Part shown: positions 21,227-42,937 of the stretch, piece after piece
How positions within the stretch are numbered: position 1 is the stretch's first letter
How the letters are laid out: every line of letters starts with the position of its first letter
IMG/VR virus record: IMGVR_UViG_3300037258_000211
Coordinates: 1 to 43,379 of that record
DNA from: a virus
Length of the DNA stretch: 43,379 nucleotides
Reading direction: 5' to 3' (one strand)
The notes under the pieces: generated by a model
The model's input: only the letters and a program-made list of their open reading frames with translations
The model's database searches: none
What the model was told of the DNA's origin: nothing
Translations under genes and position numbers: made by a program

Positions 21227-21238
21227 AGGTCCTCTTCC

Positions 21239-21577: not shown

Positions 21578-21641
21578 TCGCGACCTCGCAAGACTAGTCA
21601 CCAACTTCACAATTCATTCTGCAAGCGGAAGGCCTCGCGTC

Positions 21642-22271
21642 ATGGGTCTGTTCGATATTTTTGGCACCAGCGATCAAGACGCCGCGGCGCAAGCCCAGAT
21701 CCAGGGGCTGACACAAGCGCAGCAGCAGGGCACGTCCGATATCAATAACGGCCTCTCGCAGGCCACGAGCTCGTTAACGTCCGCGCTCGCGCCTTTTGCG
21801 ACAAATCTTGCGACCAACCAGGCTGGCCAAACTGCTTATGCCAACGCGACCGGGGCAAATGGTGCTGCCGGCTACGCAGCCGCGCTCAATAATTTCCAGA
21901 CGAACCCCGGCTATCAGTTCACGCTCAACCAGGGCACGGAGAATGTTCTGCGCAACCAAGCGAAGACCGGAGCGCTCAATTCCGGCAACACTGACGTCGC
22001 GCTCGATAATTATACGACCGGCCTCGCCAATAATACCTGGCAGCAATACCTGACGAATCTGCAGCCCTTCCTGCAGGGCTCGACCGCGGCCGCGGCGGGC
22101 ACGGCAGGTGTCGATACCTCGCTCGCCCAGACGCAAAGCGCCGCCGGCAATAACCTTGCGTCTCTCGATTATTCGACGAACACCGGCATCGGCAACGCCA
22201 ATGCCAACGCCGATCTCGCGGGCCTCTCGGCATCCGGCAATCTCGTCAATCTGCTCACCAGCTTCCTCTGA
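21642..22271 (+). CDS. DNA ejection protein, P22 gp7-like
   Basis: 209 residues, Ala/Asn/Gln-rich. It contains NPGYQFTLNQGTENVLRNQAKTGALNSGNTDVALDNYTTGLAN, a motif recurrent in podovirus internal proteins expelled with the DNA. It starts with a short amphipathic segment (MGLFDIFG). It is first of four genes in the position of the P22 ejection cassette. Confidence 0.7.
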   Translation: MGLFDIFGTSDQDAAAQAQIQGLTQAQQQGTSDINNGLSQATSSLTSALAPFATNLATNQAGQTAYANATGANGAAGYAAALNNFQTNPGYQFTLNQGTENVLRNQAKTGALNSGNTDVALDNYTTGLANNTWQQYLTNLQPFLQGSTAAAAGTAGVDTSLAQTQSAAGNNLASLDYSTNTGIGNANANADLAGLSASGNLVNLLTSFL

Positions 22272-22283
22272 TCGGAGCGCCCC

Positions 22284-22625
22284 ATGTTTCCCGAGACCGT
22301 ACCGGCGCCGAATTACAGCGCACCGCTCTTGAACTTCAAGGCGGCAAGCCCTGGACAGCAGCAGCCGCAACAGCAGCCTCAGCAGGCCGCGGGATTTCTG
22401 CCGAAACTACAAAACGGCCAGATCGATTTCCGCAAGATCGCCACGGATCTGCAAAACATGGGGCAGACCGCCGGCGGTGCAGCGCAGAAAATCGGTCAGA
22501 ACGTGGGCGGCCTTATACAAGGCATCGGCAATGGCGTCGGCTCGATCGCGCAGGGCGCTGGAAACGGTGCGGCCGCCCTGGTCAATGGGGGCGCCAACGG
22601 TATCGCTGGACTTCTGGGGCTCTAA
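22284..22625 (+). CDS. Small ejection-cassette protein, 113 aa
   Basis: The N-terminus contains APNYSAPLLNF, closely repeated in the next gene. A Gln/Pro-rich linker is followed by a Gly/Ala-rich amphipathic C-terminus (QKIGQNVGGLIQGIGNGVGSIAQGAGNGAAALVNGGANGIAGLL) that resembles membrane-inserting segments. It may help form the DNA conduit. Confidence 0.65.
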   Translation: MFPETVPAPNYSAPLLNFKAASPGQQQPQQQPQQAAGFLPKLQNGQIDFRKIATDLQNMGQTAGGAAQKIGQNVGGLIQGIGNGVGSIAQGAGNGAAALVNGGANGIAGLLGL

Positions 22626-22628
22626 GCA

Positions 22629-24548
22629 ATGCCTGATTTTCCCGCAGCGGTGAACGCGCCAGGTGGTGCGAGCTATTCCGCGCCTCTTTTGAATTTCGGC
22701 GGCCCGGGCGGCATCACAAATGCCATCCAGGGGCAAATTCAGAAGCAGCGCGATATGGATTATCAGCAGTCTCTGCGCACTGCTTTTCAGGGCGGCGTCC
22801 CGATGATCCCCGGCACCAACATGCCGGATTACGGGGCGATGGCAACGAAGCTGATCCAGCTCGGCGATACGAGCCAGGGCGTCACACTCGCCAATGCCGA
22901 CGTCGCTCGTCGTGGAATTATTGAAGGGGCCAAAGCCTCCCAAAATATGACGACGGGCAATCTTCCCGGAGACAATAATCCCCCAGGCGTCACCGTTCCG
23001 CCTCATGGCATACCTGATGGCGCCAATCTCCCGGCACCAGGTGCCAATAATGCACCCGTCACGGGGCCGCGCGCGCCGGCGCCGAAAGTCTCGGGCAATG
23101 GCGATAACGGCCAAAATACGCTTATGACCATGATCGGGGATAATGGCGTTCCAGACGAGAAGGCTGGATTTGTAGCCAATACGATTGCGAAGAGGCTCAA
23201 CATTGATCCGAACGCGCCGATCACCGATCCGAAAATCGCGCAGAGCGTCGCGCGCCAGATTCTCGCCTATAAGACCGCTACCCAACCTAAGAGCTCACCT
23301 GCGCTAGCTCAATCCGATGCGTCGGCGACCGATGACGCAAACGGCGATGGCTCGACAGTTCCCGCTCCCAGCATAGCCTCGCCGGCGCCGGCGCAATCCG
23401 CGGGCAGCAAGACGGCCGCGCCGAACGGAGCGGCGCTTTCCGATCCAACGCTAGGCGGCTTGGTGCCGACGCAATGGGTGCAGAAGTTCGGACCGGCTGC
23501 AGCTGGTAACTATATCCGCTATTTGACCGGCATTGCCGCGATGCCGGGCATTCCGGCGAACACGAAGGAAGCAGCTCAGAAAAGGGCCGACAGCATCGCC
23601 ACCGCTTTGCAAAAAGCGAGCGAGCCGACCAATGAGCAGAAGAACGCTTCGGCATCAGGTTATGCGAATCCGAGTGACTACACTGTCGATACGGCAAACC
23701 GTACGTTCACGCCCGAGCAGAAGGCATACAAGGAATACACTGACCAGGGCGGCAAGCTGACGTTTCAGGATTGGACAGCGGCGACCGCGGGCGGAAAGAA
23801 ACAGGCAGAAGTTACTGCGGAGAACTCGTCACTCACGCCCGAGCAAAAGAATGCAGGTGGCGCAAATCAGAGCGTTCTCGATTATGAGCGCTCTAAGGAA
23901 GAGGCCAAGGACGACGTCAAGCGCTTTGGCAAAATGGCGGAAGGCCTCGATGCCGCGGGCGCTGCCGCCACCTCGATGATGCCGCACCTGCAGCTCGCGC
24001 GATCGCTGATGAATAGCCCGGATTTCTACTCGGGCGCCGGCGAGGGCGTAACGCTGGCCTACAAGCGCGCAGTCGCTGCCCTTGGCGGAGATCCCAACCA
24101 GGCGCTGCCGCAAGAAGGCTTCCGCAAAGTCATGGCGGCCAATATCCTCGACCAGGTCGCGCAGCTCAAGGCTGAGACGCAGGCAAGCGGTGGCGCAACG
24201 CGCATCTTCCAGTCGCAGATCGCGTTGATGGAAAAGGCCGCGCAGAACCCGGACAACACGATCGCGGCGAACCGGCTACTCACCGAGATGGGTTTCCGAG
24301 CGGCGTCGCGTGCCCAGCAGATCGCCGACATGGCGAACAATTACAACGGCGGTCATCTCAATCCGCAATTCAACATACAACTGCGGAAATGGAATGCCGA
24401 TCATCCGCTGTTCACGCCACAAGAGCTCGCTGATCCGCGCTTGATCGCGCCTCCCATCTTCTCGAGCCCGCAAGCCGTGGCAGCGGCGAAGCTGCCCAAG
24501 GGCACACCGTTCAAGACCGGTGACGGCCGGATTAAATACGTGCCCTAA
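22629..24548 (+). CDS. Large ejection/internal virion protein, 639 aa
   Basis: Starts with a YSAPLLNF motif shared with the upstream protein. A Pro/Asn/Gly-rich region (about 95-290) is followed by a helical C-terminal half (about 390-590) of the kind found in podovirus internal proteins, with QTQASGGATRIFQSQIALMEKAA, a pattern seen in several phage structural proteins. It corresponds in position to P22 gp20. Confidence 0.65.
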   Translation: MPDFPAAVNAPGGASYSAPLLNFGGPGGITNAIQGQIQKQRDMDYQQSLRTAFQGGVPMIPGTNMPDYGAMATKLIQLGDTSQGVTLANADVARRGIIEGAKASQNMTTGNLPGDNNPPGVTVPPHGIPDGANLPAPGANNAPVTGPRAPAPKVSGNGDNGQNTLMTMIGDNGVPDEKAGFVANTIAKRLNIDPNAPITDPKIAQSVARQILAYKTATQPKSSPALAQSDASATDDANGDGSTVPAPSIASPAPAQSAGSKTAAPNGAALSDPTLGGLVPTQWVQKFGPAAAGNYIRYLTGIAAMPGIPANTKEAAQKRADSIATALQKASEPTNEQKNASASGYANPSDYTVDTANRTFTPEQKAYKEYTDQGGKLTFQDWTAATAGGKKQAEVTAENSSLTPEQKNAGGANQSVLDYERSKEEAKDDVKRFGKMAEGLDAAGAAATSMMPHLQLARSLMNSPDFYSGAGEGVTLAYKRAVAALGGDPNQALPQEGFRKVMAANILDQVAQLKAETQASGGATRIFQSQIALMEKAAQNPDNTIAANRLLTEMGFRAASRAQQIADMANNYNGGHLNPQFNIQLRKWNADHPLFTPQELADPRLIAPPIFSSPQAVAAAKLPKGTPFKTGDGRIKYVP

Positions 24549-26953
24549 TGCCAGATATTGCCTACGGCTCTAGCAACGATCCGGCGTTGCCGCCGATCAA
24601 TCTGCCGTCATTCGGCGACGGCGCGCCTCGGCAACCGCTTCGCATCGTTATCAATAAAGCGCCGCAGCCGGCTGTTCAGCAGACTCAGGCGCCAGCGCCT
24701 GCCGCGGGTGCACCGCAAGATGATCCGTGGGCCGCTTTCCCCGATGCGCCGGCCGCAACCACCGCGCCGGCAAAAGCCGCTGAACAAAAACCGGCCGAAA
24801 AGCAAGCATCGAGCGAGGGAGACGCATGGTCGGCGTTTCCTGACCAGCCGCCGCCTGGCGCGCCTGGTTCAACCCAACCCGCCCCCGCCAAGCGCGAGGT
24901 AGAGACGGGGGAAGCGGCCTCGCGAGGTATTCTCAATTCGTTGACGTTCGGCGCAGCGCCGGCGATCGCCGGGCTCGCCAGCGCATCGGGAATGCCGAGC
25001 GAAGCGAAAAACGAAGACGAGGTCGATATCAATCCGATCCGTCCCGTCGTGGGTGCGGCGCGGCTGCTGCATAATTATTTCTCCGATCATCCCGATCCGG
25101 ATGTGCAGGCCGCTTACGAAAAGGGGCGCAAGGACGCACTCGATCAGCAAACCTTGTCCCAAGAACAACACCCGACCGCCTATCTCGCGGGACAACTAGG
25201 GGGGGCGCTTCTGACGCCAATGGGCGTCCTTGGGCCCGTTGCAAAGGCAACGACGGTACTTCCCCGCATTGCTCGCGGCATGGCGGTTGGAGCTGGCGGC
25301 GGTGCGCTTTTCGGAACGGGCGAAGGCCTCAGCGAAGGTGACAATCTCGCTGATCTCGTAACCGATGCAGGAAAGGGCGCGGTGACGGGGGGCGCCTTTG
25401 GCACCGTCGGATCGACCGGGGCAGAGCTTTTAGGTAAAGGCGCGTCTAAGGTCATGTCGATTGCGCGCGGCACCCGTGACGTCGACGCCGAAGCGGGTCG
25501 CCGTGTCGCAGGCGCGCTCGCTTCCGACTTTGAAAATCAGGGGGCGGCCTTAACGCCGGAAGAGATCGCGGCTGGCAACGCAGCTGGCACGCCACGCGCA
25601 ATCGTTGATACCGGTGGCGAACGTACGCGCGCCCTGGCGCGCAGCTCGGCCAATACATCTCCGGAAGGCCGACAGGCCTTGACCGAGATGACGCAATCAC
25701 GGTTCGAGCAACAATCGCCGCGCATCGCAGGCTTCATTAGAAATCTGACGGGGGGTGGTCACGCCGCGGATGATGCCGAGGCCTTATCGGCCGTCGCGCG
25801 CAAGGTGAACAAGCCGCTTTATGCGAAGGCCTATGCCGCCGGCGACAAACCGATCTGGTCACCAGAGCTCGAGCGGCTCACTGGCAGCCCTTCAGTCAAG
25901 GCCGCCATCAACGGCGCTGTGACCCGCGGCAAGGACCGCGCCATCAATGACGGCATGGGTGCGTTCCGGCCAACCGCGAAAGTCACGCCTGACGGCCAGC
26001 TGATTTTTAACAAAGGGCCGACAGGCGTTCCGACCTATCCCAATCTACAGTTCTGGGATTACACCCAGCGAGAATTGCGCGATCTGGCGGAAGCGGCGAG
26101 CCGCACGGGACGCAAAGAGGAAGCGGCGTCCCTCAAGGGATTACATGCGCAGCTGCGCGCGGAACTCGATCGGCTTGTTCCCGAATTCGGCAAAGCACGT
26201 CAAACGGCAGCGTCTTTTTTTGGCGCCGAGAATGCGCTCGATGCCGGACGCAAGTTCGTAATGATGAATGCACCGATCGCGGAGGTGCGAAGAGCGCTGT
26301 CGAAAATGTCGGCACCGGAGCGCGAACTATTCGCGCGGGGTTTTGCTTCCGATCTGGCGGACAAGATTGAGCGGACGGGCGATAGCCGAAACGTCCTCAA
26401 TTCGATCTTCCTCAATAATAGCGCTGCACGGCAGAAGATCGAGCTTGCGCTCGGGCCGGGAAGAACCGATCAGCTCGAGGCCCTTTTGCGGATCGAGGAC
26501 GTCGTGGACCATGCGCGCAAGGCGCTGGGAAATTCCACCACTGCGCGTCAGCTCACCGAAATGGGTCTCGCCGGCGGCGCCGTCGCCACGTTTGAAGGCG
26601 TCAAAGAACATGACTTCAACCCGACGCATATCATCGTTGCCGCGCTCACTTATGGGGCGGTTCGTCACGGCGCAAAGATAATCGACGAACGTGTGGCTCG
26701 CCGCGTCGGCGAAATGCTCGCTTCGGACGATCCGGCCGTCCTTGCGAAAGGCGTCAAGGTGGTTGCTTCCTCGCCGGTCTATTTCAATGCGCTGAGGCGC
26801 GCGACGGGCGCAGCTTCGCGGATCGGCGCTCACGATATCGGTCCCGGTCGGGCTGCTGCCGGCGTTGCGGCGGTGCTTCAGGGCACGCTGGGTCGCGCGG
26901 AAGAAACGCTGGAGCATACCGAGCATCCTTCTTACTCCGACAGCGGACAATGA
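24548..26953 (+). CDS. Ejection protein, P22 gp16 position, 801 aa
   Basis: The first 110 residues are Ala/Pro-rich with two DxWxAFPD repeats (DPWAAFPDA and DAWSAFPDQ), a short motif common in phage internal proteins and structural transglycosylases. A Gly/Ala-rich hydrophobic stretch (about 210-260) could insert into membrane. The remainder is helical. No transglycosylase catalytic motif was found. Its start overlaps the previous stop by one base. Confidence 0.65.
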   Translation: MPDIAYGSSNDPALPPINLPSFGDGAPRQPLRIVINKAPQPAVQQTQAPAPAAGAPQDDPWAAFPDAPAATTAPAKAAEQKPAEKQASSEGDAWSAFPDQPPPGAPGSTQPAPAKREVETGEAASRGILNSLTFGAAPAIAGLASASGMPSEAKNEDEVDINPIRPVVGAARLLHNYFSDHPDPDVQAAYEKGRKDALDQQTLSQEQHPTAYLAGQLGGALLTPMGVLGPVAKATTVLPRIARGMAVGAGGGALFGTGEGLSEGDNLADLVTDAGKGAVTGGAFGTVGSTGAELLGKGASKVMSIARGTRDVDAEAGRRVAGALASDFENQGAALTPEEIAAGNAAGTPRAIVDTGGERTRALARSSANTSPEGRQALTEMTQSRFEQQSPRIAGFIRNLTGGGHAADDAEALSAVARKVNKPLYAKAYAAGDKPIWSPELERLTGSPSVKAAINGAVTRGKDRAINDGMGAFRPTAKVTPDGQLIFNKGPTGVPTYPNLQFWDYTQRELRDLAEAASRTGRKEEAASLKGLHAQLRAELDRLVPEFGKARQTAASFFGAENALDAGRKFVMMNAPIAEVRRALSKMSAPERELFARGFASDLADKIERTGDSRNVLNSIFLNNSAARQKIELALGPGRTDQLEALLRIEDVVDHARKALGNSTTARQLTEMGLAGGAVATFEGVKEHDFNPTHIIVAALTYGAVRHGAKIIDERVARRVGEMLASDDPAVLAKGVKVVASSPVYFNALRRATGAASRIGAHDIGPGRAAAGVAAVLQGTLGRAEETLEHTEHPSYSDSGQ

Positions 26954-27036
26954 CGGCTCCCACACGACGCTGAGTCTCGTCCCAAACTTAGCACGCTGCG
27001 CGCTCACCGCGCCTCCCTAATTATTGGAATTTCCCC

Positions 27037-28020
27037 ATGGCTGGTACGTTTCCAGGCGTCTGCAACGCTCAGCAGCACGACATGAACGGCAAGCCGCTGG
27101 CCGGTGCCATCCTGACGGTATTCCAGGGGGGCACATTGACACTGGCCAGCGTGTTCCAGGACATCGGGCTCATCATTCCAGGTAAAAACCCGATGGAGGC
27201 CGATGATAGCGGCCGTCTTCCGCTTTTCTTCGTCGATGACGGCACCTATCGGGTGCGTCTTACCGACTCGACCGGCGTCACCACGAATGGCGGTTTCGAT
27301 TACCCGCAAGTGCCCTCGATCGGGCCTTCCGCCGGCGGAGGAGGTGGGACACCGGTTGATCCCACCACCGTCTCTTCGACCGGCGATGTGAAATGGCAGC
27401 CGATCGAGAACGTAATCGCGGGCTGGGTGCGCATGAATGCGCGCACCATCGGCTCAGCCACTTCGGGCGCCTCGGAACGCGCCAATGCAGACACCCAGGC
27501 GCTGTTTCTTTTTATCTGGACTAATTATCCGGATGCGATCTGTCCGGTCGTTGGTGGTCGCGGTGGCACAGCGCTCGCTGACTTCAACGCCAATAAGCAA
27601 ATCACTCTACTCGACATGCGCGGTGCCACGCCGTTCGGCCTCGATGACATGGGGAACGTAGCGAAGGGCGTCTTCGCCGGCGTTCCTTTCGGCGACGGCG
27701 ACGCGACGCATGCCGGCTCATCAGGCGGAGAAGCGACACATGCACTCGCCGTTGGCGAGATGCCGGCGCACACCCATGTCCCGCAAGTCACTGATCCGGG
27801 GCACAAACATGAGCAGACCGTCACCAATAATGTGGTCGGCGCATTCATCGGTCCACTAGCAGAACAAAATCAGGGGCAAGGGACTCCTGCCAGTACGCCC
27901 GCTTACGATTCATCAATGGCAGCAACCGGCATCACCGTCGCGAATGCAGATACTGGTGGCAATTTGGCTCACAATACAATGCCGCCATTCGTGCTCGGCA
28001 CATGGTTCTGGAAGCTTTGA
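27037..28020 (+). CDS. Tail fibre with collar domain
   Basis: 327 residues. The N-terminal domain (MAGTFPGVCNAQQHDMNGKPLAGAILTVFQGG...GTYRVRLTDS) is a small beta fold that docks fibres to the tail. GDVKW and the C-terminal MPAHTHVPQVTDPGHKHE ... HNTMPPFVLGTWFW form a phage collar-type domain with histidines that usually bind metal. It probably binds the host envelope. Confidence 0.85.
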   Translation: MAGTFPGVCNAQQHDMNGKPLAGAILTVFQGGTLTLASVFQDIGLIIPGKNPMEADDSGRLPLFFVDDGTYRVRLTDSTGVTTNGGFDYPQVPSIGPSAGGGGGTPVDPTTVSSTGDVKWQPIENVIAGWVRMNARTIGSATSGASERANADTQALFLFIWTNYPDAICPVVGGRGGTALADFNANKQITLLDMRGATPFGLDDMGNVAKGVFAGVPFGDGDATHAGSSGGEATHALAVGEMPAHTHVPQVTDPGHKHEQTVTNNVVGAFIGPLAEQNQGQGTPASTPAYDSSMAATGITVANADTGGNLAHNTMPPFVLGTWFWKL

Positions 28021-28023
28021 GCC

Positions 28024-28449
28024 GTGTATCAAAATCCTGTTCTTTTCCCGCAGCTCACCAATCGGGAAAGCTGGACGCTGCCGGTCCAGATCAACGATGA
28101 AGATACCGATGACCCGATCGCGCTTGCCGATGACGAGGGCAATCCGCTTGTCTCAATTCAGTTCGAAGTGCGGCGTACCGGTCATCATCACGTAAGCTCC
28201 GGGTACGGGTCTTCGTTTTACGATTGGGGTGTCGGCAATGAAGGTCCGGCACTCAAGGCCTCGATCGGCAACGGGATTACGCTTCTCGATACCGGCGTGT
28301 TCCAGGTCTACTTCTCCGAAACACAGATGCGCTGTCTTCGGCGAGGCACTTATGAAGTGGGCTGCACCCTCGCGAGCCTTGACGGCGTCGACGTGCGCCA
28401 GCTGTTCCGCGGCCGCCTTCCCATCCTCGACGGGTTAGTCACGACATGA
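28024..28449 (+). CDS. Virion-associated protein, 141 aa, GTG start
   Basis: GTG at 28024, three bases after the fibre gene's stop. ESWTLPVQINDEDTDDPIALADDEGNPLVSIQFEVRR and RRGTYEVGCTLASLDGVDVRQLFRGRLPILDG form a single beta-sandwich-like domain seen in proteins beside phage fibre genes. Overlaps the next start. Confidence 0.65.
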   Translation: MYQNPVLFPQLTNRESWTLPVQINDEDTDDPIALADDEGNPLVSIQFEVRRTGHHHVSSGYGSSFYDWGVGNEGPALKASIGNGITLLDTGVFQVYFSETQMRCLRRGTYEVGCTLASLDGVDVRQLFRGRLPILDGLVTT

Positions 28450-28994
28450 CGTTGCCAGCAAGCATTCGCATCAACGTAACGGCGCCGTTCCCGGCTCTTG
28501 TCGTCGGGACTGGTCCGATTACACTCGAGAAGGCGAATGGAATTTGGAGCGTCGGTTTTTCAATCGACAGACTTGCCTATGTCGTCCCTGCGCCAGCCGC
28601 GCTCGCCTCCGATTTTCTGATTGCCTACGACAGCGCGGCGAGAACATTCTTCAAGCTCACTCTCGCTGACGTGGCCGCGGCGGCCAATGTCTCAACGCCT
28701 TCTTACGACAGCGCCGCGGGCACTTATAACGTCACGAATGAAACGGTCCTGTTGATCGATAAGCTCATTCCGGCCGCGCATAACATTCAGCTGCCGGCAG
28801 CAGCAGCCAGAAATGGCGTCCCTATCGTCATCAAAGATTTTGCGGGGGTCTGTGGGGACCCTACAAAGATTGCCACGATATTGCCCGGCGCCGGCGAAAT
28901 GATCGATGGACTCGCGGCCCTTCCGGTCAATTCAAATTACGGCGGCTTCAATCTCGTCCCGATCGCTACCGGTGGATGGTACATCTCGCCATGA
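28446..28994 (+). CDS. Tail appendage protein, 182 aa
   Basis: Start overlaps the previous stop (ATGA). A beta-rich protein; the C-terminal IVIKDFAGVCGDPTKIATILPGAGEMIDGLAAL resembles a repeat common to tailspike and receptor-binding tips (IxIKDxxG...DTIDG). It probably caps or decorates the adjacent fibre. Confidence 0.6.
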   Translation: MTLPASIRINVTAPFPALVVGTGPITLEKANGIWSVGFSIDRLAYVVPAPAALASDFLIAYDSAARTFFKLTLADVAAAANVSTPSYDSAAGTYNVTNETVLLIDKLIPAAHNIQLPAAAARNGVPIVIKDFAGVCGDPTKIATILPGAGEMIDGLAALPVNSNYGGFNLVPIATGGWYISP

Positions 28995-30538
28995 GAAAAC
29001 TTTTAAGGCTCGGACTGATCGCCGCCTTCCTGGGCGGCTTTTTTGTGTCCGCGAATGGGCAAGGCGTTGGCCAACTTGGCTCCGGCCAGGTCTGGGGCAA
29101 CCCGAACGGCAGCCAAGGTCTTGCGCAGCCCGCAAGTCTCACCTCCATGCTGGATCGGGCATTCGGCTCGACCAACGGCATGCTGCTGGTCCGCGGGGCC
29201 TCGAATTGGGGCGCCGTGCAGCTCGGTACAGGTCTTGCGGTCGGCGGCGGCAATCTGAATTTGCAGCCGGCCGCTGCAGGCACGATCGGTGGCGTTAATT
29301 CGATCACGTCGCTGGCGAATAACTGGATTGCCTATATCGACACGGCGGGCCTGCCGCATCAGTCACAGCCTGGATTTTCAAATCTTTCCGGATCACTCGG
29401 CTGCTCGCAGACGCCGGCATATACCGGAGACGCGGCGAAATCGGCCGGCAGCTGCGTAACGGTGCTCGGGAATATTCCTTCCGGTACGACTGCAGCCGGC
29501 AATATCCTTCATTCCAATATCGCGGCTCCGTCCACGCCGGCGTCCGGCAAGGATATTATCTGGTCGGATAGCACCGATCTTCGCTTCCACGACAAGAACG
29601 CGAGCGGGGTCATCGGTACGACAGTGGTGGCGGCCACAGCCTCGGCCCATCAGTTCGCCAATGCAATCAGCGCCGCGGGCGTTATTTCCTTTGCGCAGCC
29701 GGCCTTCACCGACATCAGCGGCACGATTGCCAGCGCGCAAGTGTCAGGCTCCTACACCGGCATCACGGGCCTTGGAACGCTCACGGTAGGCAGCACGGGC
29801 GCTGGCTTTACGATCGCGCTTTCTACATCGACATTGACCGGTCAGGTCGGCCTCACGAATCTGCCGACACTTGGTGCGAATACCGTCCTGGGCAGCATTG
29901 CCGGCGGCACGCCAATCGCGCTCACGGCCACGCAGCTGACTACTTTATGCAATGTTTTCAGCGCGACCGTGAATGGCTGCGTGCCGAATCCGGGATCAGC
30001 CACCGGAAAAGTTCTCAGCGATAACGGGACATGGATCAGCGTCGCAGGTACGGGCACGGTCACCAGCGTGGCCATGACAGTGCCAACCGGATTTTCAGTC
30101 GGCGGGTCGCCGATCACCGGTGCCGGCACTTTGGCGATCACGCTTTCGAATGAAAGCGCCAATACTATCTTCGCCGGCCCGAGCAGCGGTGGCGCGACGA
30201 CGCCGGGCTTCCGCGCCATGGTCACGGCCGATCTTCCAGCCGGCGTCTCACAGACGATAGCCAGCGGCTCCCTTACGCTGAACACCACCTCTGTAGGATC
30301 GGCGGCATGCTCCTCCGCCCAGACCGCGACGGCGACCGGCGCAGCTACTACGGACGCAATCGAAGTTTCGTTCAACGGCGACCCGACAGCGGTGACCGGC
30401 TACATCCCGCTGACCACCGGCATGCTCACGATCATTCCATACCCGACGACGAACACCGTGAATTTCAAGGTCTGCAATAACACTGCCGCGTCGATCACAC
30501 CGGGTGCGGTGACACTGAACTGGCGCGTCATCCGATGA
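28991..30538 (+). CDS. Long tail fibre-like protein with N-terminal signal-like segment
   Basis: 515 residues from ATG at 28991, overlapping the previous stop as ATGA. The first 24 residues look like a Sec signal (RKLLRLGLIAAFLGGFFVSA). The body is a Gly/Thr/Ser/Ala-rich fibre shaft with repeated AGTGTVTSVAMTVPTGFSV and GNIL/GPSSGG-type elements usual for phage fibres. A signal peptide on a fibre is unusual: either it anchors the fibre or the protein is exported. Confidence 0.75.
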   Translation: MRKLLRLGLIAAFLGGFFVSANGQGVGQLGSGQVWGNPNGSQGLAQPASLTSMLDRAFGSTNGMLLVRGASNWGAVQLGTGLAVGGGNLNLQPAAAGTIGGVNSITSLANNWIAYIDTAGLPHQSQPGFSNLSGSLGCSQTPAYTGDAAKSAGSCVTVLGNIPSGTTAAGNILHSNIAAPSTPASGKDIIWSDSTDLRFHDKNASGVIGTTVVAATASAHQFANAISAAGVISFAQPAFTDISGTIASAQVSGSYTGITGLGTLTVGSTGAGFTIALSTSTLTGQVGLTNLPTLGANTVLGSIAGGTPIALTATQLTTLCNVFSATVNGCVPNPGSATGKVLSDNGTWISVAGTGTVTSVAMTVPTGFSVGGSPITGAGTLAITLSNESANTIFAGPSSGGATTPGFRAMVTADLPAGVSQTIASGSLTLNTTSVGSAACSSAQTATATGAATTDAIEVSFNGDPTAVTGYIPLTTGMLTIIPYPTTNTVNFKVCNNTAASITPGAVTLNWRVIR

Positions 30539-31233
30539 TGAAGCGCGCTGCGGTTTTATGCTTTTTGGCGCTCGCCATTGCCTGCGGGGCGTCCGCGCAG
30601 AGCGTCATGTTTCCTGGTCCGGGGCTATCGATCGCGCCCAAGGTTCTGACCTATCAAACCACCACCTTTACTGCTGGCAGCACAAGCCCCTTTACTTTTA
30701 GTTCCCTCGCTATTGGGACAGCAGCCGCCAACCGATATGTCATCGTCGGTATCGCCGGCACCGCAACGCCGTCAGCCGTAGCATCAGTCACGATTGGCGG
30801 TGTCACCGCGACGCCGGTCGTTTCGCAGGTTGCCGGCAATAGCGTAGCAGCCATCTACATTGCTTTGGTACCGACAGGAACGACGGCCACCATCGTCGTT
30901 ACCTTCACTGGCGCAACGCAGAAGTGCAGCATTGGAGTGTGGTCCGCGACTGGCATTTCGGCAACCCCGGTCGGAACAGCATCGAGCACTGCCAATCCCG
31001 CCAGCCTGGCGCTCACCACCGTCAAGGGCGGCTTCGCCGTGGCCCACATGCAGGTGGACAGCACGGGAAGCTACACATGGACAAACGCCACCAAGGAATA
31101 CGAGAACAGCAATATGGACGGTTTCACGTCATATTCTGGCGCGGATGCTCTGACGACAACGACAAGCCTGACCATCACGGCAACGCCGGTGGGTGGCAGT
31201 TCATCGCGCCCAAGCGTGGCTGCAGCGTGGTAA
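30535..31233 (+). CDS. Exported beta-rich protein at end of tail cluster
   Basis: 232 residues, start coupled to the fibre gene. Signal-like N-terminus (AAVLCFLALAIACGASAQS) followed by an all-beta Thr/Ala-rich domain (RYVIVGIAGTATPSAVASVTIGGVTATPVV, TATIVVTFTGATQKCSIGVW). This domain type recurs in phage particle proteins of unknown role. It is last in the tail operon. Confidence 0.7.
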   Translation: MMKRAAVLCFLALAIACGASAQSVMFPGPGLSIAPKVLTYQTTTFTAGSTSPFTFSSLAIGTAAANRYVIVGIAGTATPSAVASVTIGGVTATPVVSQVAGNSVAAIYIALVPTGTTATIVVTFTGATQKCSIGVWSATGISATPVGTASSTANPASLALTTVKGGFAVAHMQVDSTGSYTWTNATKEYENSNMDGFTSYSGADALTTTTSLTITATPVGGSSSRPSVAAAW

Positions 31234-31298
31234 GGCAAGCAGCCCTTTCGTTTCTTTTTGATCGCCGTAGATATTCTGGACGGCCGAAAGGGCGCGGA

Positions 31299-31451
31299 TT
31301 AAAAATAAAAAAGCAATGCGGAAGCGGCAGATCCAAGGCCCAATGGAATAAAAAAACTATCCTGAACGAGCGCCGCCGCTACCGCCAGCACAACTCCGAA
31401 AAGCTTAATGATAATGCGTTTTTTTAACATAGCTGGAACGATAGGCGTCAT
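31299..31451 (-). CDS. Possible 50-aa membrane protein on the opposite strand
   Basis: MTPIVPAMLKKRIIIKLFGVVLAVAAALVQ then a second hydrophobic stretch: two short membrane segments separated by a turn, like a small holin. No good Shine-Dalgarno is seen, and the surrounding 31234-31527 gap is otherwise free of genes apart from an inverted repeat (GCCCTTTCG...CGAAAGGGC) and a terminator. Confidence 0.35.
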   Translation of the reverse strand: MTPIVPAMLKKRIIIKLFGVVLAVAAALVQDSFFIPLGLGSAASALLFYF

Positions 31452-31488
31452 CTCAAAATAATACAACCCGACTCTATCGCCTTTCCCC

Positions 31489-31512
31489 AAGCCGCCTCCG
31501 GGCGGCTTTTTC
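31489..31512 (+). terminator. Terminator just upstream of the endolysin gene
   Basis: AAGCCGCC pairs with GGCGGCTT around TCCG, then a T-run. It ends the tail transcript only 16 bases before the endolysin start codon, so lysis genes depend on read-through, antitermination or a promoter not recognised here. Confidence 0.75.
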
Positions 31513-31527
31513 TTTGGAGTAACAGTC

Positions 31528-32658
31528 ATGAACCCGATCGTTGCTGATATTTTCCATGGCGACCGCGTGATCGGCGATCGGCCCGGCGAACCGAACGGCT
31601 TCATTCAGGCCGCGGCCGCGGGCATCAAGGGCATCATTCACAAGGCCACCCAGGGCGTCGTCTCGGCCGACCCGCTCTATGCCGCGCGACGTAACATGGC
31701 CGCCGCTGCCGGCGTTCCTCTTTGGGGCGCCTACGATTTCAATACCGGCGACCCTGTATCGCAGCAGGTCGAATTCTTCATGAAGGCCGCGCAGCCGGAT
31801 AAGGCGACGTTCTGCGTGCTCGACTTCGAAGACAATACGCACAGCGAAATGACGTTGGCACAATGCGTGGAGTATTTGCGGCAAGGCGATGCGGCGCTTT
31901 CCGAAATATGTGGCATCGAGCGCCGCTTCGGCATCTATAGCGGCAATCGCATCAAGGAATTAATCACCGGTGCCGACCAGGGCACGCGTGACTTCTTGGC
32001 GCTGCATCCGTTCTGGCTTTCCGAATACGGCTTGGTCGCGCGTCTCGTCGACGTCAATGGCCATCCGCTGCCCTGGTCGCGATATTCGCTATGGCAATGC
32101 TCCGCCGATGGTGCGGGCCCGCTGCCACATTCCGTCCCGGGCATTCCGGTCAACGGCCTCGATCTCAATGTCTGCGATAGCGGCTACGATCGGCTCGCCG
32201 CAGAATGGACAGGGGGCGCCACGCCTTCATCTGCCATTGCGCAGCCCGCGCCATCTACGGCCGCAGTACCGGCGATCGCCAGCTCCGTGAGCATGGGCCC
32301 GCGCCAGCATAATATCGTCGCGACCTGCTTCGGTGGTGCCGGCGATAGCGAAGCAAGCGCCTATGGCGGCCATGTCGATCCGAACCAGCCGGGTGTCGCG
32401 CTGCCATTTCGTTTCCGCACGCCGCCGAAGGTGACGGTCTACGGCGGCAATCAATCGGTCACTTGCGCCGTCGTCGACGTCGGGCCGCACAACACCAACG
32501 ATCAGTATTGGGCGAGCGCATCGCGGCCGCAGGCCGAAAGTCAGTCGGGCAATCATGCAGGCATCGACATGACGCCGGCAGTGTTTGCAGCGCTCGGAGT
32601 CAATCCTGGAGATCCCGCCTATGGCGAGATGACGGTCGATTGGGAGTTCGCTGCGTGA
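31528..32658 (+). CDS. Endolysin: GH25 muramidase plus double-psi beta-barrel domain
   Basis: 376 residues with TTTGGAG upstream. Residues 1-215 are a glycoside hydrolase family 25 lysozyme: VADIFHGD at the N-terminus, CVLDFED (97-102, catalytic Asp/Glu pair) and SRYSLWQCS. After an Ala/Pro/Ser linker, residues about 270-376 (VATCFGGAGDSEASAYGG, VTCAVVDVGPHNTNDQYW, NHAGIDMTPAVFAALG) form an RlpA-like double-psi beta-barrel, a domain that binds or cleaves septal peptidoglycan. No signal peptide, so a holin is needed. Confidence 0.85.
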   Translation: MNPIVADIFHGDRVIGDRPGEPNGFIQAAAAGIKGIIHKATQGVVSADPLYAARRNMAAAAGVPLWGAYDFNTGDPVSQQVEFFMKAAQPDKATFCVLDFEDNTHSEMTLAQCVEYLRQGDAALSEICGIERRFGIYSGNRIKELITGADQGTRDFLALHPFWLSEYGLVARLVDVNGHPLPWSRYSLWQCSADGAGPLPHSVPGIPVNGLDLNVCDSGYDRLAAEWTGGATPSSAIAQPAPSTAAVPAIASSVSMGPRQHNIVATCFGGAGDSEASAYGGHVDPNQPGVALPFRFRTPPKVTVYGGNQSVTCAVVDVGPHNTNDQYWASASRPQAESQSGNHAGIDMTPAVFAALGVNPGDPAYGEMTVDWEFAA

Positions 32659-34401: not shown

Positions 34402-34920
34402 ATGGCGAAACGAACGACAAGCCCGGCCGAGATCTCAGTGCCGCATGGCGATCGAGCTCAGATCGAGCAGATGCATCAATCGCTGGCGCGCGTCGCCACC
34501 AAGGCAGCGACCGAAGCCGCGACGCGCGCGGCCAAGGAAACCCTTAACGGTTTTTTTCTCACTATCGGTTTCGATATCACCGAACCGAAAGAGATACAGC
34601 GCTTGCAAAAGACCTTCACTTTCGCCAGCGACATGATGGTGGCGCGCGATACGATCCGCCGCAAAACCTTGAGCACGCTGGTGGTGCTGGTCGTCACTGG
34701 GCTGGGTACGCTGCTCGCGATTGGCGTGAGAAACTGGATCAAGCTGCCATCGGTCGCGCTTGCGGCAATGATGCTCGCGACAACGCCGGCGCCGGCGGAT
34801 GCGCACTGGAAGCCCGAATACGCGTCTGCCCCCCCCCGAGGTGCAGGATTGGTACGCCAAGGCGGAGACGACGCTCGCATCGCGGCCGCGGCTGCACTTC
34901 GCTTCATGTTGCGCTCATAG
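34402..34920 (+). CDS. DUF6127-like membrane protein, reading frame runs into a C9 tract
   Basis: 172 residues as read. ARVATKAATEAATRAAKETLNGFFLTIGFDITEPKEIQRLQKTFTFASDMMVARDTIRRKT then one membrane helix (LSTLVVLVVTGLGTLLAIGV) is the pattern of DUF6127-like small phage membrane proteins. After it the frame continues into what looks like a signal peptide (LPSVALAAMMLATTPAPADA) and a domain start (HWKPEYASAPP), then switches to out-of-frame sequence at nine C. The last 28 residues are probably not native. Confidence 0.65.
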   Translation: MAKRTTSPAEISVPHGDRAQIEQMHQSLARVATKAATEAATRAAKETLNGFFLTIGFDITEPKEIQRLQKTFTFASDMMVARDTIRRKTLSTLVVLVVTGLGTLLAIGVRNWIKLPSVALAAMMLATTPAPADAHWKPEYASAPPRGAGLVRQGGDDARIAAAAALRFMLRS

Positions 34921-35119
34921 CGACATCGTGAAGACGCGATTCCGGGTGAGCAAGATCGATGGCGCCGATGCCTGGGAATGGCAGCTGGCGGACGGCTCGT
35001 GGAAACGCATCCCGACCGACATCATCCATTGGGGCGAGCATGCGCCCGGCGGGCAGGCCACGCTTTTCGCGATCGGCGAGCTCGAAACCTGCTTTTATCC
35101 GCCTGACGGCGGGATCTGA
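34799..35119 (+). CDS. Exported Cys-containing protein, frame-shifted from its signal peptide
   Basis: The convincing part begins at EVQDWYAKAETTLASRPRLHFASCCAHSD and ends GELETCFYPPDGGI. It resembles small exported rhizobial and phage proteins with a CC motif and a terminal CFxPPxGG. The natural N-terminus (signal peptide) lies in the other frame before the C9 tract. The ATG at 34799 is available but would lack a signal. The role is unknown. Confidence 0.6.
   Translation: MRTGSPNTRLPPPEVQDWYAKAETTLASRPRLHFASCCAHSDIVKTRFRVSKIDGADAWEWQLADGSWKRIPTDIIHWGEHAPGGQATLFAIGELETCFYPPDGGI
34829..34837 (+). repeat. Run of nine C at a frame junction
   Basis: With eight C the upstream frame reads straight into the downstream protein (...SAPPEVQDWYAK). 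With nine it terminates at 34920. It is either a sequencing or assembly error, a mutation, a phase-variable tract, or a site of ribosomal or polymerase slippage. Confidence 0.6.
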
Positions 35120-38100: not shown

Positions 38101-39927
38101 TCATGCCGCGGTGGCCACGCCGGGGAATATGCAGTCGGCGGCCTGGTAGGTTTTTGCCGCCGGGCTTTCGAGCAAACCGAGTGAGCGCATCTGGCTCACG
38201 TATTTCTCGAAGGTCGACGACGTCGCCGACATGCCGGCGGCCATCGCCAGGTCTTCTTTGCCGATCGAGTTCGGAAATACCGCGACGGCACCACGCACGA
38301 TCGCGAGCTGGCCATCGGTGAGCTTGCGCGCGATCGCATCCATCATCGCTTCATGGGTGGGCGGCGTGTCCATCTGAGCCGCTTGAGCTGCGCCCTTATC
38401 CGTCAGGTCATAGAAATGGGGCTTCGGCGAGACGATAAAGCCGCCCGATTTGAGCAGGCTGATGTACTTCTCGAAGGTCGATGATTTCGGGCTGCTGTCG
38501 GCCAGGAACGCGACCATCATCTTCGAGGCGCCGTTCGCGCCCAACAACTTAGTCCAGGCGATCGCGTCGAGAATGGCCTGCTGGGTTTTTGTGATTTCGA
38601 TGTCGCCGGCGCCCCCTTCGGCTGTCACGCGTGACGCCTGTCGTTGCGCCGGCGGGGCCTTTTGTTGCACGGGAGGGGCCGGAGATGGCGTGAACGCAAT
38701 CTCCTCCGCCTTTGCTTCCCTGAACCTGACGGCCTCCAACTCGCCGTCGAGCTGCTCGACGAACTTCGCCGTGTAGCCTCGAAGCGAGCTCAGGACGGAT
38801 TTCAGCCGCTTATGCAGCTCGCGTTCCATATTCCGGTCGAGCTTCTTCTTCGCCTGCTCGAACCCGCGCTCCTCGGCCGCGGCGATCGCGGCCTTGTCGG
38901 CCTTCTTGGTTTCCTTCGGGTCGGCCGGCTTGCTGGCAGCATCGGCGGCCCTCTTTTCAAGGGCGGTCTTCTCGGCGGTGAGCTTCGCCACTGCGGCGCG
39001 CAGCTCCTTCGGATCACTCGCCTTGACCTGCTCGACATAAGCGCTGATTTGCACCTTGAGCTTGTCGAGGTTGATCGGCTTGAGCTTCTTGGCCTTGACG
39101 CGCTCGCCGCGCTTCGGTGCCCGCGAGCTGTCGAACGTCACCTTTTTAGGAAAGGTGTCGAGCTTGAAGACCTTCCGCCTCGGAAGCCAGACAAGGGCTC
39201 GCCCGGTCTCGAGGGTAGGCATCGTCGACCAGATTTCGTCCCATTGCTCTTCGTTCGCCTGACCTTTGACCCAATTTCCGATTGCATCGCGATCCTGCGA
39301 CGACGTCAGGCTGAAGCTCACCATGCCATCGACCTGGCCAAGGACGCTTTTCGCGATGCCGGCCGGATTCTGCGTTATCAGCCAAGGGATGAAGCCTGGC
39401 TTGCGGCCGCGCTTCACGAGCTTCTGCATCATGCCGAGCAGCTTGGGGGCCTCACCACCATCCTTGTCGAGGATGATCTGCGGCGCGAACATATCGGCTT
39501 CGTCGCAAATCACATGCAGCAGGACGTCGCGCGGCTTATTCTTGAAAAGGCTCATGAGCATCGCGAGCACGAAGCGCCGCTGTTCGGCGTCGGAACCCAT
39601 CTTCTCGAGGTCGACGATGCAGCTCTCGGCCATGCCGGCGATGGTTTCGCCCATCAGTGCCCCGGAGTTCGGCAGGAGCTCCATATCGCCGTGCTCACCG
39701 CCGAAGATCACCAACCTCTCCTTGTCGCGGAAGACGGAAGGGTTCTTGCCATCGGAGGTGATGCCAAGGCCCCACCAGGCGCCAAGCGGATCGATAATGA
39801 CGACACGAGCCTTGCTGACTAGAAGCCGCTCGACGGCGCTGCCGGCGCCGTAAGTTTTGCCACTGCCGCTCGTGCCGACGAACGCGAGGCGATCGTCCAG
39901 GGCGGTGTTCGGAATAGGGTGACTCAT
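38101..39927 (-). CDS. HerA/FtsK-like ATPase with coiled coil and duplicated winged helices
   Basis: 608 residues. Walker A GTSGSGKT (18-25), Walker B LLHVICDEAD (136-145) and LITQNP (183-188) are those of HerA/VirB4-type DNA or protein pumps. A charged helical region (about 305-400) links to two similar winged-helix units (446-513 and 535-598) sharing (K/T)SSTFEKY(I/V)S...GG/LG. These are likely to bind specific DNA. Start overlaps the Dam stop as ATGA. GTCACGCGTGAC is 17 nt before the ATG. Confidence 0.8.
   Translation of the reverse strand: MSHPIPNTALDDRLAFVGTSGSGKTYGAGSAVERLLVSKARVVIIDPLGAWWGLGITSDGKNPSVFRDKERLVIFGGEHGDMELLPNSGALMGETIAGMAESCIVDLEKMGSDAEQRRFVLAMLMSLFKNKPRDVLLHVICDEADMFAPQIILDKDGGEAPKLLGMMQKLVKRGRKPGFIPWLITQNPAGIAKSVLGQVDGMVSFSLTSSQDRDAIGNWVKGQANEEQWDEIWSTMPTLETGRALVWLPRRKVFKLDTFPKKVTFDSSRAPKRGERVKAKKLKPINLDKLKVQISAYVEQVKASDPKELRAAVAKLTAEKTALEKRAADAASKPADPKETKKADKAAIAAAEERGFEQAKKKLDRNMERELHKRLKSVLSSLRGYTAKFVEQLDGELEAVRFREAKAEEIAFTPSPAPPVQQKAPPAQRQASRVTAEGGAGDIEITKTQQAILDAIAWTKLLGANGASKMMVAFLADSSPKSSTFEKYISLLKSGGFIVSPKPHFYDLTDKGAAQAAQMDTPPTHEAMMDAIARKLTDGQLAIVRGAVAVFPNSIGKEDLAMAAGMSATSSTFEKYVSQMRSLGLLESPAAKTYQAADCIFPGVATAA
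38624..38635. repeat. 12-bp palindrome GTCACGCGTGAC, copy 6
   Basis: Inside the ATPase gene, where it encodes SRVT in the linker between the coiled coil and the winged helices. Confidence 0.65.
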
Positions 39928-40670
39928 GCAGTTCTCCGTTGGCTGTCACGCGTGACGCGCTCCCAACGACCTGGAGCCACACGGATAAATTCACCGACTT
40001 GAAGCTGTTGCCGGAGCTTCGCCCGGTAATTTGGATTGCGGCGCGACTTCGGATGTGTCGCGAAGTCGCGGTAAAGAGTGGCCAGCTCGATTACGGGGCT
40101 TTCCCGCTCAGCCGCATAGGCGGCGAGGACCTCGCGCCAGCTCATGTCCCGTTTTTCTTCATCATCTGATGCAGTAAAAAGGGACACGACCACCGATCGC
40201 GGCAAGCGCAGCGCGACGAATTGGCCCTTGATGCCGCAGACGGCCAGTATATCCATATCCTCGCGGCCGTAGGCGCAGAGCGCTGGCGCTTCACGCGCGC
40301 CGTGATGCTTCAGGCCGTCCTCGCCGATGAAGTCGAAGCGGCCCTTCGGGAACAGGATCGCGTCGGCGCGTTGCCAGACGAAACGATGAAAGGCAGCCGT
40401 CGCTACCCGCGCGAAGAGGAGCGCCGTTCCGCGGCCATGCTCGGCCATCCGCGCGAGGAACATCTCGAGCAGCGGGTCGGAGTAGGGCGGATTAAGGAAA
40501 ACCCGTCCGCGCCACGGACGTTGCAGCCCATTTTCGCGCTTGGTGATGACACGGCGCGCGGTGCGTGTGATCTGCGGCCGCGGAGAGCTGGGGTCGAGAT
40601 CAAAGCTTCGCCAGCCGCCAAGTGCGGCGATCACGAACGGTTGCGTGTACCAATCGTCGGTGGACGTCAT
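39924..40670 (-). CDS. Dam-type N6-adenine DNA methyltransferase
   Basis: 248 residues from ATG at 40670, which overlaps the upstream stop as ATGA. DWYTQPFVIAALGGWRSFDLDPSS (6-29) and GRVFLNPPYSDPLLEMFLARM (55-75, catalytic NPPY) follow the phage Dam family (N-6-adenine-methyltransferase). It is translationally coupled between two ATPases, so methylation could mark the DNA they recognise, or protect it. Confidence 0.8.
   Translation of the reverse strand: MTSTDDWYTQPFVIAALGGWRSFDLDPSSPRPQITRTARRVITKRENGLQRPWRGRVFLNPPYSDPLLEMFLARMAEHGRGTALLFARVATAAFHRFVWQRADAILFPKGRFDFIGEDGLKHHGAREAPALCAYGREDMDILAVCGIKGQFVALRLPRSVVVSLFTASDDEEKRDMSWREVLAAYAAERESPVIELATLYRDFATHPKSRRNPNYRAKLRQQLQVGEFIRVAPGRWERVTRDSQRRTA
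39945..39956. repeat. 12-bp palindrome GTCACGCGTGAC, copy 7
   Basis: In the last codons of the Dam gene, ending 17 nt before the start codon of the winged-helix ATPase; a GGAG Shine-Dalgarno lies in the spacer. Confidence 0.7.
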
Positions 40671-42517
40671 GCTGCTCTGTTTCGGTTTGGCGTGAAGTCC
40701 AAGCGCATCAAATTGGACATGCGCGCGACCGTGGCATACGTCCGGCCCGGTAATTCCGCGACGCAATCAACGAGTTTATAGCCTTCGGTATGCAAGCGCC
40801 TGAGCTTCTCCTTTTCTTCGTCGGCCCAGGCCTGGCGTTGCTTCAGACCGAGCTTGCTCGCCATCGTGGCAACGGCCGCCCGGCTCTTGCCGAGAGCATC
40901 GGCAATAGCCTGCACCGGCTTTTTATCGGCATACATTGTTCGCAATGTTGTTTCTTCCTCGGCGCTCCAAGGCAGATTCTGGCCGCGCGTGATGTTGTGG
41001 CGTTGCGCCAGTTTGGTGATGCCTGTAATGCCGCGAGAAAAGCCTGCTTCGGCAAGATCGGCGATAATCTCGCGTGTGCTTTTCCCGGAATTGATACCGG
41101 CCAACGCGATCGCTTCTTCATCCGGCTTCCAATAATTGACGCGGTCGCGCGTGATGCCGAGCGCGATCGCGCGCATCTGGATCGATTGACGGCTGCGGCG
41201 AAATCCCTCCGCTGCGAGCAGCGTTGATATGTCCATGATGCGCACTTCACGCGCATAGGCATCGCGAACGATCTCATCCTCGCGATCGCGCCATTCGATA
41301 GCTGCGCTGGCGCTGATGAGGCCGAGCGAGTGGGCTCGAGAGGATATATTGCTGGTCGACGTGCTCAGACCGATTGCAGCTAGTTCAGCGCCGATATCTC
41401 GGATGGCCGCACCGCGCTCATATCCGGCGCGGATGATCGCGTCTTCCGCCTGAGCCCAATCGCGGCCGCGGCGACCCGAGCCTCGCCGATGCGTATCGCC
41501 TGTCGCGGCGTCACCATCCAAATTAGTTGTAGCGCTCGGCAAGCCTTTGAGCAGCGCGCCGGTAGCGGCGGCCGTGACCTTCGGAGGCGCGATCAGTTCT
41601 GGCGCGCTCCCCTTATGTCGGGACTTCACGGCAGCGGTGCGAAAGCGGACACGCTTGGGACCGCAAATCGCCGGGCCCAGGCAAATGAACTCTCCGTCGA
41701 CGAGTGAGCGTAATGCGCGGCCTTGGCCAATCGTGAAACCCAGGATGCCGCTCGCGCGCTCGAGATCCCGGTCGAAGATTGTGCGGCCGCAGATGATGTT
41801 GGTCGCCTTCGAGGAAATCGCGATGGAGGTTTCGCCGAGCCGCTGGGTGGCGATGATGCCGGCAATGCCGCGCTTGCGGCCGCGGCCCATCATGTCGGCG
41901 AGAGCTGCAACCGTCTGTTTGCGAAGAGCGGGGTCAACGTCGCCGAGGTCTTGACGTGGCGCGACGACTTGCGCTTCGTCAACGAGCACTAGAAGCGGAT
42001 GCCAGTGCTCCTCCTGGGCGTCGATAAGTCCGGTGGCCAGGTCCGCCATCAGTTTCATGCGCTCATCCGCCGTGGCATCGGAAAGATCGAGGATCGCGCT
42101 GTAGCGGTGTTCACGAAGATGCAGCGCGAAAGCGTGCGCGCCGATGCGCAAGACGTCGGCCGAGGAAAGTACCGCGACATCGAAATGCTCGGCCAGCGTC
42201 GAGAATTCACCGTCGAGATCAATGAGCAGCTGCTGCACGCGGCCAAAAGCCTGTTCGAACAGTCTGCGAAGCAGCATCGACTTGCCGGCGCCGCTATTGC
42301 CCTGGATTAGCAGCCGGCCGGCGATCAGCTTCGGCAGACTTAAGCCGATCGGGATATTCGCCGCCGTATTGCCAAGGTGTAGGTCATCTGCCCTCAGGGC
42401 CGGGATGCCGATTGTGGGAGGCGGCGTTTCGCTGACCGTCCCGAATTTCCGGCCGCCAGCAAGGGCTGCAAGTTTCGCTTCCGGGCTGAAATCTTCTGCG
42501 AGATTGGATCGCGCCAT
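40667..42517 (-). CDS. HerA-like ATPase fused to five Myb/SANT-like repeats
   Basis: 616 residues. ATPase domain: Walker A GNSGAGKS (73-80), Walker B LLVLVDEAQ (175-183), GIIATQR (220-226). After a linker, five repeats of about 50 residues each begin with a Trp and end in a basic recognition-like helix: WAQAEDAII (354), WRDREDEIV (409), WKPDEEAIA (463), WSAEEETTL (517), WADEEKEKL (564). Such repeats are helix-turn-helix DNA-binding modules, related to Myb/SANT and GcrA. The combination predicts a DNA pump or loader directed to specific sites. Palindrome copy 8 is 17 nt upstream. Confidence 0.8.
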   Translation of the reverse strand: MARSNLAEDFSPEAKLAALAGGRKFGTVSETPPPTIGIPALRADDLHLGNTAANIPIGLSLPKLIAGRLLIQGNSGAGKSMLLRRLFEQAFGRVQQLLIDLDGEFSTLAEHFDVAVLSSADVLRIGAHAFALHLREHRYSAILDLSDATADERMKLMADLATGLIDAQEEHWHPLLVLVDEAQVVAPRQDLGDVDPALRKQTVAALADMMGRGRKRGIAGIIATQRLGETSIAISSKATNIICGRTIFDRDLERASGILGFTIGQGRALRSLVDGEFICLGPAICGPKRVRFRTAAVKSRHKGSAPELIAPPKVTAAATGALLKGLPSATTNLDGDAATGDTHRRGSGRRGRDWAQAEDAIIRAGYERGAAIRDIGAELAAIGLSTSTSNISSRAHSLGLISASAAIEWRDREDEIVRDAYAREVRIMDISTLLAAEGFRRSRQSIQMRAIALGITRDRVNYWKPDEEAIALAGINSGKSTREIIADLAEAGFSRGITGITKLAQRHNITRGQNLPWSAEEETTLRTMYADKKPVQAIADALGKSRAAVATMASKLGLKQRQAWADEEKEKLRRLHTEGYKLVDCVAELPGRTYATVARMSNLMRLDFTPNRNRAA

Positions 42518-42534: not shown

Positions 42535-42546
42535 GTCACGCGTGAC
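42535..42546. repeat. 12-bp palindrome GTCACGCGTGAC, copy 8
   Basis: Ends 17 nt before the start codon of the Myb-repeat ATPase, with AGGA in the spacer. Same geometry as copy 7. Confidence 0.7.
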
Positions 42547-42547: not shown

Positions 42548-42937
42548 TCAGAGGGACACGCGAACTAGAAACCCGAACGCACTCACAAAACCCACGCACC
42601 AGCCGATCGCGAAAATGGTCCAAAACGAGTAGCGCCGCGGTGACGGTGCGGCCGGAAGTGCCGGCGCGGTCATTACCGGCACGGGCGCTGGCAGCGCCTC
42701 CGCTATCTTCGGTAACGGCCATTGCGTCGGTGTCTTGAGCCGGCCGACCACGCGATCGGAAACCGCAAAGGCGAAGGTGGCGGCCTCGTCCGCGCCCGCC
42801 AAGCGCATCAGGGCGTTAAACGAGCCGTCGATCTCGCAGCGCGCCAGGTTGGTGGCGAAGTCTTTGCCCCGCGTTCCGGCATGTTGAAGGAGGTGGCCTT
42901 CTTGCATCATGATCATGCGCGCGTTGTCGTCGCTCAT
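42548..42937 (-). CDS. Small membrane-anchored protein, 129 aa
   Basis: Soluble N-terminal domain (MMQEGHLLQHAGTRGKDFATNLARCEIDGSFNALMRLAGADEAATFAFAVSDRVV), Pro/Ala-rich linker, and a C-terminal membrane helix (YSFWTIFAIGWCVGFVSAFGFLV). Its start overlaps the previous stop (ATGA). It could tether the ATPase next to it at the membrane. No family is recognised. Confidence 0.7.
   Translation of the reverse strand: MSDDNARMIMMQEGHLLQHAGTRGKDFATNLARCEIDGSFNALMRLAGADEAATFAFAVSDRVVGRLKTPTQWPLPKIAEALPAPVPVMTAPALPAAPSPRRYSFWTIFAIGWCVGFVSAFGFLVRVSL

Follow-up and report, generated by a model that had tools for sequence, protein, structure and literature searches.

Twin recognition helices in a phage-encoded HerA-type ATPase, a candidate sequence-addressed DNA motor

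What do two HerA-type ATPases with putative DNA-reading tails do in the genome of a soil-type phage? The question is raised by virus record IMGVR_UViG_3300037258_000211, whose 43,379 bases are here called the window. Motors of the HerA and FtsK types move DNA in cells, in viruses and in defence systems, but to our knowledge it is clear for only a few of them what sends them to a given piece of DNA. The main new result concerns the second of the two ATPases, HerA2, which carries twin recognition helices that are matched within each protein and divergent between phages. The reading preferred here, to which we give a probability of about 0.5, is that HerA1 and HerA2 are sequence-addressed motors for double-stranded DNA (dsDNA) that handle the DNA of their own phage during the early phase, with a Dam methyltransferase encoded between them as an accessory. 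The genes concerned form a minus-strand operon:

40667 to 42517, minus strand: HerA1, a HerA/FtsK-type ATPase (residues about 45-290) lacking a HAS domain, with five C-terminal GcrA/Myb-like helix-turn-helix (HTH) repeats at residues 352-606
39924 to 40670, minus strand: Dam-family (PF05869) adenine methyltransferase, accessory and not conserved with the HerA genes
38101 to 39927, minus strand: HerA2, a HerA-type ATPase (residues 1-270) lacking a HAS domain, then a coiled coil (345-410), a disordered linker (412-439) and two winged helices
37621 to 38097, minus strand: a small protein of 158 amino acids (aa) that begins three bases past HerA2

The original prediction, made from the letters of the window, gave HerA2 a tail consisting of a coiled coil and two winged helices, and both are seen in the AlphaFold model (pLDDT 88; all structures discussed are monomer models), with a long helix at 345-410 and winged helices at 447-508 and 525-596. 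What do these winged helices read? An alignment of 71 HerA2 proteins shows that the recognition helices of winged helices 1 and 2 are nearly identical within a protein and very different between proteins, e.g. SSTFEKY/SSTFEKY in the window and GSNLRNRLSE/GSNLRNRLSE in record G529. G521 has the same helices as the window, G497 and L256 have another type, and L267 has a third. In the model, the twin positions map to the beginning of the third helix in each winged helix, at residues of about 482-490 and 570-578. Of the eight key positions, numbered 12-18 and 20 in the aligned segment, all but position 15 agree within a protein in 90-97% of cases; position 15 does so in 77%, and agreement between proteins is 10-47%. 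The recognition segment scores 0.80 against a permuted mean of 0.27, the highest of 5000 permutations reaching 0.337, and the rest of the winged-helix domain scores 0.43 against 0.31. When the set is restricted to 35 proteins that are less than 50% identical, recognition positions score 0.905 versus 0.30 when shuffled, and other winged-helix positions 0.395 versus 0.313.

How are the twins kept alike? A recent domain duplication or gene conversion was considered and rejected, as codon identity is close to chance: where the twin residues agree, identical codons are found in 135 of 246 cases in the 35-protein set, with 124 expected from codon usage. This points to selection on the protein, and not DNA copying between the halves, as the force that keeps the twins. 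Read most simply, the twin helices of a protein would contact a pair of similar half-sites, whose sequence varies from one phage lineage to another. The winged helices of HerA2 would then constitute a built-in pair, comparable to the FtsK gamma winged helix that reads KOPS, and the site read would vary from phage to phage. The earlier notion of sequence-reading HerA motors is supported, and the twin helices strengthen it. It is conceivable, and is offered tentatively, that each phage lineage has a HerA2 motor-to-DNA code of its own, in which both helices change together and by which the motor might distinguish the DNA of its own phage from that of the host and of rival phages.

Are the two ATPases indeed of the HerA type? 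HerA1 matches DUF87 in Pfam (2e-8). The Pfam HerA matches of HerA2 are weak (2e-4, slightly below curated cut-offs); it also matches the PADLOC HerA model at 3e-14 and, in a profile comparison, HerA from the PDB at 3e-28. Foldseek groups both proteins with solved HerA and STIV2 B204 ATPases (probability 1.00, target TM about 0.7 to B204), and the assignment of both to the HerA/FtsK type holds. HerA1 carries GNSGAGKS (Walker A), VDEA (Walker B), RGRKRG (arginine finger) and ATQR (sensor glutamine), and HerA2 carries GTSGSGKT, CDEAD, RGRK and ITQ, all conserved in alignments. In the models, the HerA1 ATPase begins at about residue 45 after a disordered stretch and that of HerA2 at residue 1-15, with no N-terminal HAS barrel in either; models and sequences alike show no membrane helix region in HerA1 or HerA2. 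NurA had been noted as absent, and there is indeed no PF09376 match in the window. PHROG labels both proteins as terminase large subunit; since TerL is encoded separately in the window, this label misleads.

The HerA1 tail had been read as five Myb/SANT-like repeats. The model (pLDDT 82) shows five three-helix HTH units at 356-603, and Pfam finds GcrA (7e-5) and HTH matches in the tail. Repeat-to-repeat alignments reach z = 15, with the third repeat (R3) pairing weakly with R2, R4 and R5. The recognition helices of HerA1, unlike those of HerA2, are moderately well conserved from phage to phage, with identities of 0.43-0.72 to those of the window. HerA1 with fused HTH repeats is found in 15 viral contigs, the window included; in relatives, ATPase and HTH repeats can be separate genes that overlap by four bases (L007, L008) or separate neighbouring genes (L024, L030, L035, L141). 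The split form speaks for a functional tie of the motor to its reader. ATPase-only relatives of HerA1 (L118-L196) are common as single chromosomal genes in Sphingomonadales, Acetobacter, Bradyrhizobium, Bosea and Azospirillum; their neighbours were examined and none is conserved.

Do the three genes belong together? They overlap by ATGA at both junctions, as first described, HerA1 with Dam at 40670-40667 (the Dam ATG being at 40670) and Dam with HerA2 at 39927-39924, and coordinates and strand are correct. A three-gene system centred on the methylase was proposed, but has to be given up: Dam is present in one of 44 whole HerA1/HerA2-related records and missing from the other 43. The expectation of the same gene order elsewhere thus fails for the trio and stands for the HerA1/HerA2 pair alone, which is adjacent in five of the 15 fused-HerA1 contigs (the window, L010, L002, L240 and L246), in both gene orders; HerA2 lies elsewhere on the same contig as HerA1 in G002, G008 and G009. 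The three-gene unit is peculiar to the window genome and the pair is not. The window Dam has a PF05869 match at 4e-10 and NPPY and DPSS motifs. Two large prophage contigs also encode a Dam methylase (L086, 5212-5955; L102, 5362-6102), in each case some 2 kb upstream of HerA2, and these methylases share a C-terminal domain with the window Dam. Among smaller genes, homologues of the 158-aa protein follow HerA2 in G521 and G529, and a weak one does so in G001 (IMGVR_UViG_3300048599_000143), a record in which HerA1 is directly joined to HerA2. The small membrane proteins proposed at 42548-42937 and from 43098 onward have no Pfam family match, and the first has only a weak PHROG match (0.037).

The genomic setting offers hints of the role. 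The plus strand of the window, opposite to the minus-strand operon, carries canonical genes for terminase, portal, major head protein and endolysin; the window also encodes a replication-initiation-like protein. With a normal TerL and a portal present, genome packaging by HerA, the role that the PHROG label suggests, is unlikely. TerL (10620-12170) shares 58% identity with its counterpart in Microcystis phage Mwe-JY13 and 53% with that in Pseudanabaena phage Pan3. The best named terminase matches are thus cyanobacterial phages, although the HerA1 relatives point to Alphaproteobacteria as the host. The neighbours of HerA1 in relatives resemble, by sequence, phage recombination and replication genes together with GcrA-like and LexA/C1-like regulators. 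A conserved prophage early operon (L003, L004, L005, L011, L014, L015, L016) holds a GcrA-family protein, HerA1, a ParB-like protein, several proteins without an assigned identity (one RuvC-like by eye) and a divergent LexA/C1-type repressor.

How might the parts work together? The fold and motifs of the ATPases, the tails, the recurrence of the pair and the constraint on the twin helices were computed; from these we infer ring (hexamer) assembly, DNA translocation, site binding and a biological role. HerA1 and HerA2 would be phage-encoded, ring-type dsDNA motors of the HerA/FtsK superfamily, whose C-terminal readers direct them to particular places on the DNA. HerA1, with its five GcrA/Myb-type HTH units, may partner with HerA2 or with a ParB-like protein, and the Dam methylase would be an accessory passenger. 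The most likely role would be early DNA handling: the motors would work within an early operon on the DNA of their own phage, in replication, recombination or segregation of copies, and not in head filling. Several results weigh against this. Among phages with the same helices, a search for shared dyads yielded nothing clearly above random groups, save a palindrome that is also present in other phages; neither repeat clusters that could be the HerA2 target nor an outstanding strand-skewed octamer were found in the window. In roughly half of the contigs with fused HerA1 no HerA2 is seen, although many contigs are fragments, so that counts of absence set lower bounds on presence. Finally, none of the HerA2 neighbours at 84 loci is strongly conserved (the commonest family occurs at 16 of 84), which leaves the pathway not pinned.

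Could HerA2 instead be aimed at other phages? The main rival explanation makes it an inter-phage weapon or superinfection-exclusion factor, in which variable reading heads spot rival genomes and the motor blocks or displaces them. Hypervariability of the recognition helices between phages speaks for such a role, and HerA/FtsK capture systems that pair HerA with fast-evolving winged HTH (wHTH) proteins have been proposed as defensive (PMC10853773, PMC12839542). Yet no nuclease, NADase or other effector is recognised beside HerA2 in the window, and strict matching of the helices within each protein suggests a stable cognate site; the explanation is unlikely. A known defence system was also considered and set aside: HerA models match, but no effector (DUF4297, SIR2 or REase) is found among the window neighbours scanned.

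Partition of an extrachromosomal prophage, with HerA1 moving the DNA and HerA2 or a ParB-like protein marking the site, appears rather improbable. In eight other loci a ParB-like gene comes straight after HerA1 or overlaps it, often via ATGA (L003 and L004, among these loci, are near copies of each other), and in L002 one lies about 1.2 kb downstream of HerA1. Of the roles put forward at first, namely partition, replication, genome entry and defence, all of which stay candidates, these neighbours favour DNA segregation or replication, and the replication-initiation-like protein of the window is consistent with this. However, ParB_N has no match in the window and its matches in relatives score under the curated threshold, though L002 has a passing HTH_ParB match, and one HerA1 relative (L016/L117) resides in an Aminobacter chromosome contig, likely as an integrated prophage.

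Does the window itself carry a candidate address? The exact 12-bp palindrome GTCACGCGTGAC occurs in eight copies versus 0.005 expected (repeat analysis), and with a one-base extension its usual form is YGTCACGCGTGACR. The copies, all exact and without strand, are as follows:

1609 to 1620: copy 1
3247 to 3258: copy 2, inside the replication-initiation-like gene
4333 to 4344: copy 3
6470 to 6481: copy 4
18175 to 18186: copy 5
38624 to 38635: copy 6, within HerA2, in the linker-coding part at codon 431
39945 to 39956: copy 7, ending 17 nucleotides (nt) before the HerA2 ATG
42535 to 42546: copy 8, ending 17 nt before the HerA1 ATG

The spacing of copy 7 is identical in G521, and in G521 and G497 a copy likewise lies within the replication-initiation-like gene. 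It would be attractive to regard the palindrome as the cognate HerA2 site, and the whole set as a genome-wide address of the KOPS/matS kind. It is the top de novo perfect palindrome in the window and, by far, in G001, as well as in G477 and G497; the window and G001 have in common only HerA1, HerA2 and, weakly, the 158-aa protein. The window, G001, G477, G497, G521 and G529 share it, all being HerA2 carriers, and G519 has four copies without HerA2. A DNA-only scan with a 14-base version, covering 50 records above 20 kb among the matches listed, found HerA2 in 3/3 records with at least five copies and in 0/47 others (Fisher 5e-5), and HerA2 is the only gene family found in six of seven copy-rich records. 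HerA1 is present in only two of these seven, which makes it an unlikely reader. Against HerA2 as reader, a quick tree of HerA2 scatters the carriers (five changes, not clustered), their recognition helices fall into four or more dissimilar types, many HerA2s close to those of carriers come from records with no copies, and the carriers share other gene modules and hence are not independent. For these reasons the palindrome is kept as a separate, real feature, and its identity as the HerA2 site is improbable. GTCACGCGTGAC tracks HerA2-bearing phages but is probably not read by the helices of HerA2; candidate readers are a host protein, the 158-aa protein, the replication initiator and HerA2 itself through a contact outside its helices.

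As a motif of the host chromosome the palindrome was rejected, since 385 Alphaproteobacteria chromosomes show no enrichment and at most four copies per genome, a sample outside which the true host may lie. In the literature the string was found only in one unrelated E. coli paper. Close pairs or clusters of it (adjacent to about 200 bp apart) with an operator-like appearance occur in G523 (34910-34969), G561, G541, G554, G559, G564 and G565. These pairs, the copies placed 17 nt before start codons and the match of the HerA1 tail to phrog_323 (transcriptional regulator) and GcrA would suit ATPases acting mainly as regulators of transcription or replication timing, with tails on promoters and upstream copies as operators, but this is very improbable, as most copies in G001 and G477 are inside large coding regions and not at gene starts, and phages sharing the palindrome differ in their HerA2 recognition helices. 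G001 also has a 4088-codon open frame (19476-31742) for a giant protein of virion type, and G477 and G521 contain giant frames related to it.

The HerA2 family, with at least 153 matches in viral contigs in one scan, has reading helices that diversify in lock-step and offers a natural set from which the reading code might be learned; it also allows one to ask whether phages mark their own DNA by sequence. Moreover, it gives a function-level handle on proteins whose present annotation stops at HerA helicase, DUF87 or terminase.

How does the pair compare with known systems? HerA of the HerA-NurA and HerA-DUF4297/SIR2 systems has the same ATPase fold and motifs, but HerA1 and HerA2 are without the HAS barrel and without a NurA, nuclease or SIR2 partner in the window, and have putative DNA-reading tails added. 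In the HerA/FtsK capture defence systems (DndH and relatives), a HerA/FtsK ATPase acts with fast-evolving winged-helix DNA readers (PMC10853773); here the predicted readers are fused to HerA, there is no restriction effector, and the setting is that of phage early operons. The HerA1 repeats resemble the DNA-binding domain of GcrA, but are five tandem units fused to a motor, next to an enzyme of the Dam family, in a genome where CcrM sites are rare (55 GANTC versus about 214 expected from a first-order model over the window) and GATC exceeds expectation (401 versus 276); a methylation-guided reader of the GcrA/CcrM type is not borne out, the methylase not being conserved with the reader across the 44 related records. 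FtsK and SpoIIIE are RecA-like dsDNA pumps whose C-terminal winged helices, carried on a linker, read DNA sequence (KOPS/SRS) (PMC3646729). HerA1 and HerA2 are of the same superfamily, and the models place the HerA2 winged helices, predicted DNA readers, C-terminally on a linker. In contrast to FtsK and SpoIIIE, the pair is phage encoded and has no membrane domain, and each HerA2 subunit has two winged helices whose recognition helices match, with a predicted specificity that varies between phages.

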